This document shows positions 52,322 to 56,568 of a DNA stretch of 64,000 nucleotides, piece by piece. Numbering within the stretch: the first letter of the stretch is position 1; the number at the start of each line of letters is the position of its first letter. The notes under the pieces were generated by a model. It did not search any database, was not told the DNA's origin, and saw nothing but the letters and a program-made list of their open reading frames with translations. The translations under genes and the position numbers were made by a program. Source of the DNA: Acidobacteriota bacterium (GTDB taxonomy: Bacteria; Acidobacteriota; Thermoanaerobaculia; UBA5066); NCBI GenBank assembly GCA_029781975.1, contig JAKOVQ010000014.1, positions 124,001 through 188,000 of the forward strand. Direction: 5' to 3'.

Positions 52322-53032
52322 CTAAAGACCGCTTCCGCCGCGGGGCTCGGCGACGAAGCGGTAGCCGACCCAGGGCTCGGTCACCACGAACCGCGGGGAG
52401 GAGGGGTCCGGCTCGATCTTCCGGCGCATCGAGCCGACGTGGACCCTCACGACGTCGGGCGTCGTCCCCGGCGCGCCGCGCCAGACCCGCCCGATGATCT
52501 GGCCGATCGTCACGGGCCTCCCCGCGTGGGTCGCCAGGAGCTCGAGGATGGCGAACTCGGTCGGCGTCAGGCGGACCTCGCGATCCCCCTGGACGACCCG
52601 GCGCCGCTCCCGGTCGACGGTCAGGCCGTCGAAGTCGAGGACCGGCTGTCCGGCGCCGACCCCGCTCCGGCGGAGCTGGGCCCGGACCCGCGCGAGGAGC
52701 TCGGGGAAGGAGAACGGCTTGGTGACGTAGTCGTCGGCCCCGAGGTCGAGGGCGCGGACCTTGTCCGAGTCGACGCCCCGGACCGAGACGACGAGGATCG
52801 GCACCCGGCCCAGCCGGCGGAGCTCCTGGATGAGGGAGAAGCCGTCCCCGTCCGGCATGGCGAGGTCCGTCACGACGAGGTCGGCGCCGCCCGTCCCGAA
52901 GAGCTGGAGCGCCTCCCGGCCGGTGGCGGCCTCGACGCACGCGTAGCCGGCCGCGTCGAGCTCGGCCGCGAGGGCCCGGCGGATCGCGGGGTCGTCGTCG
53001 ACGACGAGGAGGCGCGGCGCTCCCCGGCTCAC
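52322..53032 (-). CDS. kdpE: KdpE-like OmpR-family response regulator
   Basis: The product has 236 residues. The receiver (about 7-120) has Asp56 in VVTDLAMPDGDG and a Lys in YVTKPFSF. The winged-helix DNA-binding domain (about 135-230) has LTPTEFAILELLATHAGRPV and VRVHVGSMRRKIEPDP. It starts with GTG overlapping the kinase stop as GTGA. It should activate the kdp genes when K+ is low. Confidence 0.92.
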   Translation of the reverse strand: MSRGAPRLLVVDDDPAIRRALAAELDAAGYACVEAATGREALQLFGTGGADLVVTDLAMPDGDGFSLIQELRRLGRVPILVVSVRGVDSDKVRALDLGADDYVTKPFSFPELLARVRAQLRRSGVGAGQPVLDFDGLTVDRERRRVVQGDREVRLTPTEFAILELLATHAGRPVTIGQIIGRVWRGAPGTTPDVVRVHVGSMRRKIEPDPSSPRFVVTEPWVGYRFVAEPRGGSGL

Positions 53033-54495
53033 GGCTCGGGCTCCTGCGGAAGCGCCGGGGCGGCAGGGAGGTCGAACCGTGCGACCGCGCCGCCGCCGGG
53101 ACGGTTCGAGAGGACGACGCGCCCCCCGCTGGCTGCCGCGAACCCGCGGGCGATCTCGAGCCCCAGCCCGCTCCGCGCACCGTCGCCCGGCCCGACGAGC
53201 GACGACGCCCCCCCGAGGCCCGGTCCCCGGTCGGCCAGCTCGATCCGGACCGTTCCGGGGTCCGTGGGGTGAGGGGCCGCGTTCAGCTCCAGAGGGGTCC
53301 CGGCGGGAGCGGCCCGGACGGCGTTCTCGAGGAGGTTCACGAGCGTCTCGAGCGCGAGGGACGGGTCGACGAAGAGGTCCGGACAGTCGCTCGCGACCGA
53401 GACGTGGACGGGGTTCGCGTCGAGGACCCCGGGGAGCGCCTCCCGCGCCGCGCGGAAGAGGTCGGCCGGCGGGGTCGGCTCGGGCTGCGGCGCGCTCTTG
53501 CCGGCCTCGAGCCGCGCGAAGGCCAGGAGCCCGTCGACCCTCCGGCCGAGCCGGAACGCCTCGCGGGCGAGCGCCTCCAGCGGCCCGCGCGCCTCCGCGT
53601 CGGCGGGAAGGAGACGGCGGAGCCCCTCGACCTGGAGGCTCATCGCGGTCAGGGGGGAGCGGAGGTCGTGCGAGACCGCGCGGAGGAGCGCCGTCTTGAA
53701 GGCCTCGCTCTCGCGGACGGCCGCCAGGCGCGTGTTCTCCTCGAGGAAGGCCTCGCGCTCGACCGCGAGGGCGACGAGGCGGGCGATCGGCTCCACCACG
53801 CGGCGCTCCGCGGGACAGCCGAGGAACGCGAGGACCCCCCGGGGGCGCCCGCCGACGGCGAGCGGGAAGTAGAGGTCGCGCCCGCCCGGCGCCGGGACCT
53901 CCGCCACCTCGCGCCGCGCGAGCGCCGTCGCCGCGAGCCGCTCGCGCTCCAGCTCGGGGCCGCCTCCGCGCCAGGCCGCGGGACCGAGCCGGCTCTCCCC
54001 GTCCTCCAGGAGGAGCAGCCCTCCTCCCGCCGCCCCGGCCGCCCCGAGCGCCCTCTCCGCCGCGACGGCGAGCCCCGTGGCGCGGTCGGGAGCCGTGAAG
54101 AGGTCGAGCGAGAGGTCGTAGAGGGCTTCGACCTCCGCGCGGCGCCCGCGGGCCTCGGCCGCCTCCTCGCGGGCCCGGACCACGAGCCGGCTGACGACCG
54201 CCGAGACGAGGAGGAAGCACCCGAGCGCGGCCCAGTTCGCGGGGTCCGCGATGGTGAACGTGTGCAGCGGGGGGATGAAGAAGAAGTTGAGCGCGAGGGT
54301 CGCCAGGACCGAGGCGGCGGTCCCGGCGACGACGCCCCGGCCGAGGGCCACCACCAGGACCCCGACCAGCTGGACGAAGCCGGCCGCGGCCGGGTTCACG
54401 CCGACGAGCCGCCCCAGGAGCGTGGCCGCCGCGACCGCCGCGGCCGCGGCCGCGACGTCGATGGCCCGTCGGCGGAGGACCCCCGGCTGGCTCAT
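53029..54495 (-). CDS. KdpD-type histidine kinase lacking the KdpD/USP sensor (DUF4118-GAF-HisKA-HATPase)
   Basis: The product has 488 residues. A DUF4118 four-helix membrane domain (about 10-106) with FFFIPPLHTFTIADPANW matches the membrane part of KdpD. A GAF-like domain follows (about 120-250), then His276 in SHDLRSPLTAM and an ATPase domain (about 365-478) with NLLENAVRAA and GLGLEIA. The cytoplasmic N-terminal KdpD and USP domains are missing and are encoded separately at 46.4 kb. A TAGGCT box lies 7 nt before the ATG. Confidence 0.9.
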   Translation of the reverse strand: MSQPGVLRRRAIDVAAAAAAVAAATLLGRLVGVNPAAAGFVQLVGVLVVALGRGVVAGTAASVLATLALNFFFIPPLHTFTIADPANWAALGCFLLVSAVVSRLVVRAREEAAEARGRRAEVEALYDLSLDLFTAPDRATGLAVAAERALGAAGAAGGGLLLLEDGESRLGPAAWRGGGPELERERLAATALARREVAEVPAPGGRDLYFPLAVGGRPRGVLAFLGCPAERRVVEPIARLVALAVEREAFLEENTRLAAVRESEAFKTALLRAVSHDLRSPLTAMSLQVEGLRRLLPADAEARGPLEALAREAFRLGRRVDGLLAFARLEAGKSAPQPEPTPPADLFRAAREALPGVLDANPVHVSVASDCPDLFVDPSLALETLVNLLENAVRAAPAGTPLELNAAPHPTDPGTVRIELADRGPGLGGASSLVGPGDGARSGLGLEIARGFAAASGGRVVLSNRPGGGAVARFDLPAAPALPQEPEP

Positions 54496-54528: not shown

Positions 54529-54801
54529 CTAGCGGGTCAGCAGGGTCCAGATCCCGATGACCACGAAACCGGTCCCGGCCACGACGCGAAGCGCGCGGGG
54601 CGAGACGAAGCGGTCGAGCTGGCTCCCGACGAGGACGCCGATCGCCGCCGCGAGCGTCAGGGCGAGGGAGGCGCCGAGGAAGACCGCCCACTTGCTCGTC
54701 CGCCCGTCGGCGGAGAAGAGGAGGGTGGCGAGCTGGGTCTTGTCGCCCATCTCGGCGAGGAAGACGGTGACGAGGACCGTCGCGAACGTTCTCCAGAACA
54801 A
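54529..54801 (-). CDS. GDT1/TMEM165 (UPF0016) family single-module membrane protein
   Basis: The product has 90 residues and three hydrophobic segments. The hallmark EMGDKTQLATLL (about 17-28) is present once, so this is a half-size member; full proteins carry two such modules and transport Mn2+/Ca2+. A homodimer would restore the pair. It starts with TTG at 54801, with GGGGAGG five bases upstream. Confidence 0.85.
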   Translation of the reverse strand: MFWRTFATVLVTVFLAEMGDKTQLATLLFSADGRTSKWAVFLGASLALTLAAAIGVLVGSQLDRFVSPRALRVVAGTGFVVIGIWTLLTR

Positions 54802-54899: not shown

Positions 54900-56537
54900 T
54901 CAGGGGGCGACGCGGCGCGGGCGCGCCGCCTTCTCCCCGTCCGCGGAGACGGCCACGGGCTCCCCCTCGGGCACCGGGCGCGCACCGGGCGCCGCCGCTT
55001 CCGGGCGCCGCCTCCGGAAGGCGCCCGCGATCCCCGAGAACGACTCGCGGAGGCGCTCGGCCTCGGCCGACCAGTCGGCCTCCTGGGCCTTGTAGCGCCA
55101 GTGAGCCGCCTCGCCCCCCTCGGCGCGGTCGTGCATCTCGACGGTCCGGATCTGCACCTCGAAGACGAGGCCGTCCGGGGCGCGGATGCAGGTGTGGAGG
55201 CTCTGGTAGCCGTTCTCCTTGGGCCGGGCGATGTAGTCCTTGAACCGGAGGAGGAGCGGGTCGAAGGCGTCGTGGATGGCCTGGAGCGCCTGATAGCACT
55301 CCTGCTCGGTCGCCAGGAGGACCCGGAAGGCGAAGATGTCGTGGATCTGCTCCAGCGCCAGGCCCTTCGTCTTCATCTTCCGCCAGATCCCCGCGGTGTG
55401 CTTGACGCGGTACTGGAGCCCCTTGTAGGCGACGCGGTGCTCGTGGAGCGCCTTGCGGATCTCCTTGTCGCGGTCCCGCACCCATTGCTTGCGCGAGGCG
55501 GTGATCCCCGCGACCTTCACGTGGATCTCGTCGAAGGCCTGCGGCTCGAGGAGCTTCAGGGCCGCGTCCTCGAGGCGCGACTTGAGGACGTTGTCGCCGA
55601 GCCGCTCGGCCTCCAGGACGTCGCGGTCCCACGTCTCCCGCGCCGCCTCGCGCGCGCCGGAATCCCCCGGGCCGCGGGCCTCGAGGTAGCGGCACCGCGA
55701 GACGAGGTAGCGCCGGAGGAGCTTCCTCCGGAACCCCTCGTCGGCCGCCGCGCCTCCCGCCTCCGCGGCGGGACGTCCGCCGGCCGGGGCGATCAGCCCC
55801 GCCGGACCGAGGCCCAGGAGGGCGCGCCGGTCGGCCTCGACGAGGCGGCGGACCGTCTCCTCGAGCTGGCTCCCGAGGTTCCGGAAGCGCCAGGCGAGCC
55901 AGCGGAGCTCCCACGCCCCGCTCGGCATCTCCAGCCCCGTCCAGTACCCCATCTCCATCTGCCTCACCCCCTCCAGGAGCCGCGCGAGGGGCCGCCCGAT
56001 GAGGAGACGGTAGGCGACCTGGAGCGAGAGGAGGATGCAGGCGGCGGCCACGAGAAGGCTCAGCCCCCAGAGGCGCCACCTCTGCGCCGAGAAGGCCTGG
56101 AAGTCGTCGTCGTCGTGCCAGATCTCGAGCCGGCCCCCCCCTCCCGCGAGCAGGGGCGTCCGGACGGGGACGTCGACGACGAAGGCGGTGGCGGGGCGCT
56201 GGGTCGGCGGGCCCGGCACGGCGACGCCGGCCACCAGGCCGTTCGAGTCGCGCAGGACGACGTGGACGTCGTGGTAGCCCCTGCGGTGGTGCGCCTCCTC
56301 GAAGGCGCGGAGGCGGGCCTGGACGGCGTCGAGGTCGGCGGCGCTCTCCACGTCCCAGGCGAGCGGGGCGACGATCTGCGAGAGGAGCGTCGTCCGGTCG
56401 TCCCGCCCGCGCTCGATCTCCCACCACTGCTTCGCTCCGGTGGCGGCCCCGAGGACCACGAGGACGATGGCCGACGTCCAGATTCCGAGGCGCCAGCCGA
56501 GCGGCAAACCCCTGTCGGGGAAGCCATTCTGGCTCAT
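54900..56537 (-). CDS. Membrane-anchored HAMP-RelA/SpoT (p)ppGpp synthetase
   Basis: The product has 545 residues. TM1 (about 15-35), an extracytoplasmic sensor (36-154), TM2 (about 155-178) and a HAMP-like linker (178-235) look like a two-component sensor input. The output is a RelA/SpoT synthetase domain (about 310-485): RVKHTAGIWRKMKTKG (377-392), HDIFAFRVLL with Asp400, RFKDYIARPKENGYQSLHT (431-449), and FEVQIRT with Glu460. Residues 309-332 match the linker between hydrolase and synthetase of long Rel proteins, but the HD hydrolase is absent. Synthesis of alarmone in response to an envelope signal is inferred. A -24/-12-like site lies just upstream. Confidence 0.88.
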   Translation of the reverse strand: MSQNGFPDRGLPLGWRLGIWTSAIVLVVLGAATGAKQWWEIERGRDDRTTLLSQIVAPLAWDVESAADLDAVQARLRAFEEAHHRRGYHDVHVVLRDSNGLVAGVAVPGPPTQRPATAFVVDVPVRTPLLAGGGGRLEIWHDDDDFQAFSAQRWRLWGLSLLVAAACILLSLQVAYRLLIGRPLARLLEGVRQMEMGYWTGLEMPSGAWELRWLAWRFRNLGSQLEETVRRLVEADRRALLGLGPAGLIAPAGGRPAAEAGGAAADEGFRRKLLRRYLVSRCRYLEARGPGDSGAREAARETWDRDVLEAERLGDNVLKSRLEDAALKLLEPQAFDEIHVKVAGITASRKQWVRDRDKEIRKALHEHRVAYKGLQYRVKHTAGIWRKMKTKGLALEQIHDIFAFRVLLATEQECYQALQAIHDAFDPLLLRFKDYIARPKENGYQSLHTCIRAPDGLVFEVQIRTVEMHDRAEGGEAAHWRYKAQEADWSAEAERLRESFSGIAGAFRRRRPEAAAPGARPVPEGEPVAVSADGEKAARPRRVAP

Positions 56538-56553
56538 GCTGCCAATCCGGGTC

Positions 56554-56568
56554 GCAGGGCGCGTGCCA
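56554..56568 (-). promoter_or_regulatory. Candidate sigma-54 promoter of the membrane Rel gene
   Basis: On the minus strand TGGCACG-N4-CTGC fits the -24/-12 consensus with one mismatch (TTGC to CTGC) and correct spacing. Its downstream GC is 16 bases before the ATG. An NtrC-type activator is encoded at 29.2 kb. Confidence 0.45.

Follow-up and report, generated by a model that had tools for sequence, protein, structure and literature searches.

The window analysed here is a stretch of 64,000 nucleotides of Acidobacteriota DNA, and on its minus strand, at positions 54900 to 56537, lies the gene for a receptor-type RelA/SpoT synthetase of 545 residues. The reading frame begins with an ATG at 56537 and its stop codon ends at 54900. 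It is taken to be a real gene because the GC contents at codon positions 1, 2 and 3 are 0.75, 0.49 and 0.97, because homologues of the protein are conserved across genera, and because the overall dN/dS between close relatives is only about 0.11 to 0.22. A first-pass annotation of this DNA had placed the feature at 54900 to 56568; its lower limit was correct, but the upper one overshoots by 31 nt and does not fall in frame. A scan for promoters and terminators at the gene returned no match. The same annotation had read the protein as a transmembrane (TM) segment, a sensor, a second TM segment and a HAMP domain in front of a synthetase that has no hydrolase, and this order of parts is borne out by hydropathy, profile comparison and Pfam. 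The presence of the TM sensor, HAMP and RelA/SpoT synthetase in one gene, conserved in the family, is confirmed.

The synthetase gene is divergent from a chorismate synthase gene on one side, and on the other it lies 98 bp upstream of a gene for a 90-residue, single-repeat GDT1-type (UPF0016) cation transporter (54529-54801, minus strand). Beyond the transporter, also on the minus strand, is a KdpD-like histidine kinase gene (53029-54495) whose product starts with DUF4118 and has no KdpD or Usp domain in Pfam; it adjoins a gene for a KdpE-like response regulator, followed by kdpA and kdpB. A functional tie to the Kdp operon and the GDT1 transporter was considered and rejected, because the neighbours differ in every other genus. 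In other genomes they include genes for DHDPS, a HEAT-repeat protein, a kinase-receiver protein, BrkB, ABC1, isochorismatase, SDR and Ni-SOD. In one of these genomes (G305) the gene right after the fusion (L084:11318-12718) encodes a protein kinase domain with a response-regulator receiver domain after it. The synthetase gene is a stand-alone unit, and its neighbourhood gives no clue to the signal.

The input half of the protein begins with two hydrophobic stretches, residues 17-35 and 156-174 (Kyte-Doolittle values of 1.9 and 2.2 in 19-residue windows), which occupy a constant place in every full-length relative. By this hydropathy prediction across the family, TM1 comprises residues 14-36 (56430..56498, minus strand) and TM2 residues 154-178 (56004..56078, minus strand), and the two flank an ectodomain at residues 37-153 (56079..56429, minus strand). 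The transmembrane layout is therefore as first described, and the ectodomain, claimed to span about 120 residues, has about 117. An AlphaFold2 (AF2) model of the full-length protein has a pTM of 0.40, with low confidence in parts of the HAMP and the G-loop. A separate model of the sensor part (10 sequences; mean pLDDT 76) has a helix at 13-64 that includes TM1, a helix at 69-85, four strands and a helix at 144-195 that runs through TM2, followed by a connector and a helix at 208-240. The predicted ectodomain meets the description of the PAS-like (Cache/PDC) fold, with its long N-terminal helix, second helix and antiparallel sheet leading into TM2. Structural comparison places it beside the sensor domains of WalK (4ywz; Z 8.9 over 109 residues at 3.3 A), CusS (5ku5; Z 8.8) and KinD (Z 8.5), and the sensor model matches a TM-to-TM model of WalK with a Z of 11.4 over 185 residues; Foldseek gave an E of 5.7e-6. 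Pfam gave no Cache or CHASE match in the protein or in eight relatives. Ribosomal protein S3-type chains and polymerases that also turned up among the structural matches were judged to be noise from a common arrangement. On the strength of the models, the ectodomain is likely to be a PAS-like/Cache-type sensor domain of the WalK/CusS type.

The segment that follows TM2 (residues 179-240; 55818..56003, minus strand) is predicted to form two helices, 179-195 and 208-240, joined by a connector. Its HAMP lies below the Pfam threshold in all eight family members scanned, and it was for this reason that the HAMP assignment was tested by profile comparison. The nearest relatives of residues 151-243 are the TM2-HAMP regions of histidine kinases from the same phylum, at about 40% identity, and the HAMPs of those kinases are scored by Pfam. 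An hhalign comparison of the fusion HAMP with these Pfam-scored HAMPs gave an ungapped alignment of 61 columns (98.1%, E 8.1e-14, 41% identity) in which the characteristic proline, glycine and glutamate (183, 197 and 210) coincide, in a comparison that is partly selected in that its HAMPs were themselves found as sequence matches to the 545-residue protein. When the HAMP profile was searched against the PDB with hmmsearch, the matches were weak (E 0.08-0.15) and in register with the HAMPs of Tsr and NarQ. The segment is regarded as a divergent HAMP: the HAMP-like linker of the first-pass annotation holds up by profile-profile comparison and by the two-helix model, but not as a Pfam HAMP. Because the HAMP goes unscored by Pfam, domain searches overlook the fusion as a receptor.

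Between the HAMP and the synthetase module lie some 25-40 poorly conserved residues, a point absent from the earlier annotation. The core of this stretch, a variable linker rich in Pro, Ala and Gly (residues 241-267; 55737..55817, minus strand), has a mean pairwise identity of 25%, a dN/dS of 0.34-0.64 and a pLDDT near 30, and on the structural side it is above all these properties that call for caution about signal transmission. A linker of this length and variability, which the model shows as disordered, leaves no visible rigid signal path, and the neighbouring genes suggest no shared signal; both points would suit a (p)ppGpp synthetase that is constitutive or regulated from the cytoplasm and merely anchored in the membrane, with the ectodomain and HAMP as ungating leftovers of a donor kinase. 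This explanation is nonetheless unlikely. The HAMP is the best-conserved part of the N-terminal half and indeed of the protein as a whole, with a dN/dS of 0-0.10 between close relatives (0.14-0.47 for the ectodomain), and D97, G100, A118 and G135 of the ectodomain are kept between families that share about 37% identity. An idle anchor would hardly be expected to be so preserved.

The output half opens with helices that precede the synthetase proper (residues 268-345, approximately Rel 130-209; 55503..55736, minus strand), continues with the RelA/SpoT synthetase domain (residues 346-486; 55080..55502, minus strand) and ends in an unconserved tail (residues 487-545, with the stop codon; 54900..55079, minus strand) that has a mean identity of 22% and a pLDDT of about 30. 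Pfam RelA_SpoT (PF04607) matches residues 377-486 with 133 bits against a cut-off of 27 (E 6e-39), and the fold matches Rel structures, so that the domain search agrees with the original assignment. The NCBIfam spoT_relA model aligns to residues 297-493 with an E of 9e-63, covering only model positions 132-328. Sequence matches in the PDB are led by the Rel proteins of B. subtilis, M. tuberculosis and S. equisimilis and by E. coli RelA (E 1e-30 to 1e-35), with alignments that begin at query residues 291-298 or so, corresponding to Rel 158-179 (218 in one more entry); the small synthetases in the PDB score far below long Rel. Residues 263-476 of the model superpose on Rel 130-350, residue 263 corresponding to Rel residue 130. 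The match to S. aureus Rel (7oiw) has a Z of 17.9 over 211 residues at 4.5 A, that to 6s2u, with AMP and ppGpp bound, a Z of 16.5 at 3.3 A, and Rel structures overall give Z values of 13-18. The start of the sequence alignments and the superposition together argue that the helices preceding the synthetase in Rel have been retained. Residues 309-332 had been taken at first pass for the linker normally found between the HD and synthetase domains, and indeed the segment from about 296 to 345 aligns with Rel 160-209. The accompanying suggestion that the sensor sits in the position of the hydrolase also stands, since these linker helices of Rel are aligned and motif and Pfam searches of the 545 residues found no HDxxED or LADRLHN motif and no HD_4 match. 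Also missing, a point that the annotation did not mention, are the regulatory domains at the C terminus of long Rel: the protein has no TGS/ACT region and ends about 60 residues past the synthetase.

All the catalytic residues checked agree with those of Rel. Asp400, Glu460 and the YQSLHT motif, noted as intact from the outset, correspond to D264, E324 and Y308-T313 of B. subtilis Rel. Identical in all ten fusions compared are R377, K379, K387, D400, R405, R431, K433, D434, K440, N442, Y444, H448, E460, Q462 and H479; in B. subtilis numbering (query residue minus 136) the identical set reads R241, K243, K251, D264, R269, R295, K297, D298, K304, N306, Y308, H312, E324, Q326, R328 and H343. A distant copy (L102) has RFRD and SGYQS in place of RFKD and NGYQS. 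In SaRelP, R78, K80, K88, D107, R112 and E174 hold ATP and magnesium (PMC5794853), and matching by motif suggests that the invariant residues of the fusions include their counterparts. Most of the positions that are near-invariant in Rel and altered in the fusions either belong to the helices ahead of the synthetase (Rel 166-172, 185 and 189) or precede the RXKD motif (293 and 294); some of the altered positions presumably touch the hydrolase in ordinary Rel.

A substitution within the active site, likewise pointed out at first pass, is the replacement of a conserved Ser by Gly in the KxxxSIxxK loop. It falls at residue 383 (Rel S247), the counterpart of SaRelP Ser84, which touches the alpha-phosphate (PMC5794853), and is present in nine of ten fusions, Ser being retained in L038. 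This loss of a phosphate contact is what might be expected if the domain were inactive and served as a regulatory module that only binds nucleotide, but Gly occupies the same position in 6 of 47 other RSH rows and is therefore no argument for an inactive enzyme. Moreover, the residues for metal, ATP and guanine stacking are all invariant, and the dN/dS of the synthetase is 0.02-0.08 in the three pairs whose alignment spans the entire domain (0.32 in a fourth pair, in which only half of the domain aligned). Purifying selection is strongest on the HAMP and, in those three whole-domain pairs, on the synthetase, and an inactive output domain is most improbable.

A different concern is the substrate. 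The RelA/SpoT fold also serves pyrophosphokinases that act on ATP to give (p)ppApp or on the CCA end of tRNA, as among toxSAS enzymes and exported synthetases (PMC12691689, PMC11559606), and PADLOC reported a weak, partial match to PDC-S33 over the synthetase part. The protein might on such grounds be a toxin or a defence effector that its membrane part triggers. The closest relatives, however, are long Rel proteins rather than small alarmone synthetases (SAS), as judged both by the order of PDB matches and by the NCBIfam models (E 9e-63 for spoT_relA against 1e-9 for YjbM), and the G-loop YQSLHT and the motif RFKD are as in Rel. RFKD is the form typical of bifunctional Rel, in contrast to the EXDD of RelA. 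A toxin-antitoxin arrangement was rejected in that no partner gene, and hence no possible antitoxin, recurs beside the fusion. A substrate other than that of Rel is accordingly quite doubtful.

The fusion is a family and not a peculiarity of one genome. A family profile search found it in 12 of the class's 149 genomes: 9 of the 14 in the window's own family and 3 of 20 in a second family. Besides the window's own family its order has two others, and in these only canonical Rel was found. Some copies (L039, L040 and L041) are incomplete, interrupted by the end of a contig or by a run of N. The fusions of the second family are 38-45% identical to the window protein over its full length. A search of 396 genomes of the phylum with the sensor profile added one full-length copy, 38-44% identical, from a genome of another class (G425) and found none in the 40 class mates of that genome; this copy, which brings the total to 13 genomes, may be misbinned, since its contig is 3.4 kb long and the bin is fragmented. 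These counts are for the one phylum. A scan of genome contigs with the single protein as query returned, in other phyla, only RSHs that align from residue 267 or 310 on, and those that were read have an HD domain; no plasmid record covers 80% of the protein. In the tree, the synthetase domains of the fusions group together as a single clade (100/100), and the canonical Rels of the same genomes make up a separate one; divergence in one half of the protein is correlated with divergence in the other (r = 0.89 over 45 pairs). All of this agrees with a single fusion event that is old on the scale of these genera and has since been inherited vertically, either with losses or with some transfer; the patchy distribution is compatible with both.

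Two further loci touch on the receptor half. In a genome of another class (G003) a stretch at a contig end (L103:4000-4733) resembles the family's TM1-ectodomain-TM2-HAMP, split over two frames, and its output half falls past the contig end. Elsewhere (L005:1279-2478) a 400-residue frame has a sensor, TM and HAMP like those described here and a C-terminal part in which Pfam finds no kinase domain.

The genome from which the window comes has exactly two RelA_SpoT domains, that of the fusion and that of a canonical Rel on contig 31. The survey for a bifunctional Rel was thus positive, the hydrolase and synthetase motifs of the contig 31 protein both being intact. The same contig also encodes a small HD_4 protein (C31:79174-79452; a 184-residue frame) with an HDCMED motif, which, judged by sequence, is likely to be a small alarmone hydrolase.

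The fusion is an RSH enzyme combined with a classical receptor module, both halves being of known kinds. Sequence and structural models together indicate that it is probably a membrane receptor whose output is (p)ppGpp synthesis gated by an envelope signal, and this reading is strengthened by the occurrence of the family in 13 genomes, by the invariant catalytic pocket, and by the bifunctional Rel and small hydrolase of the genome. It most likely acts as a homodimer held by the HAMP, in which a ligand or envelope state at the PAS-like domain would change the conformation of the HAMP. That change would alter the way in which the coupling helices and synthetase are positioned and thereby how fast pyrophosphate passes from ATP to GTP or GDP, and the signal could turn (p)ppGpp synthesis either on or off. 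Given the long and unconserved linker after the HAMP, docking and undocking or a change in dimer proximity would be likelier than a rigid coiled-coil lever. The (p)ppGpp produced would be removed by the bifunctional Rel and the small alarmone hydrolase.

In ordinary Rel, hydrolase and synthetase communicate through this same central region. The signal would enter the fusion at the helices that in Rel relay the influence of the hydrolase and regulatory domains to the synthetase. A nanobody that binds the synthetase domain of Rel can stimulate it to the same extent as ribosomes together with pppGpp (PMC13376610), and with the crosstalk region this makes a protein input at the coupling helices mechanistically plausible. 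We lean, by a small degree, towards the larger claim that the family is a new RSH class, a one-protein TM receptor that would convert an extracytoplasmic signal into (p)ppGpp with no involvement of the ribosome or translation, its HAMP-linked sensor functionally replacing the hydrolase via the same coupling helices.

Several known systems share parts of this design. Receptor-type diguanylate cyclases such as YfiN/TpbB use a periplasmic PAS-like sensor and a HAMP to gate a second-messenger synthase; the principle is the same by analogy, whereas the enzyme and messenger differ and the output halves are not homologous. The HAMP histidine kinases of the BaeS, WalK and NarQ type share the TM-PAS-like-TM-HAMP input, but their output is HisKA/HATPase. 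The long RSHs (Rel, RelA and SpoT) share the synthetase and its preceding helices, from about residue 263 or 296 of the fusion, as well as the catalytic residues and the RXKD motif; in place of the HD hydrolase and C-terminal half, the fusions carry the TM-sensor-TM-HAMP in front. RelQ and RelP share the synthetase that lacks a hydrolase, with a structural match of Z around 10, but are soluble tetramers with no sensor. The statement at first pass that known synthetases are soluble calls for a qualification, since synthetases exported via Sec or other routes are known: SaEAS and VpEAS likewise tie an alarmone synthetase to a membrane or secretion route, but they leave the cell by means of signal peptides or secretion domains, whereas the fusion enzyme is predicted to be cytoplasmic behind its receptor (PMC12691689). 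A putative TM region in a plant RSH, a different case from the fusion, is of disputed meaning (PMC5633626). The superfamily survey of Atkinson (2011) distinguishes synthetase-only, hydrolase-only and long forms, and the word "transmembrane" is absent from it. No RelA/SpoT synthetase fused to a HAMP or TM sensor is described in the full-text literature searched, a body that excludes subscription papers and preprints.

If the layout works as it implies, (p)ppGpp would, like c-di-GMP and cAMP, count among the messengers that single-protein membrane receptors can make. Well-studied (p)ppGpp synthetases learn of stress indirectly, from starved ribosomes, partner proteins or transcription. The fusion would be a natural experiment on how a synthetase can be gated with neither hydrolase nor ribosome, and a single gene would make control of (p)ppGpp by an outside signal alone testable. 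Bacteria with the fusion may, in that case, start the "starvation" response straight from a signal outside the cell.
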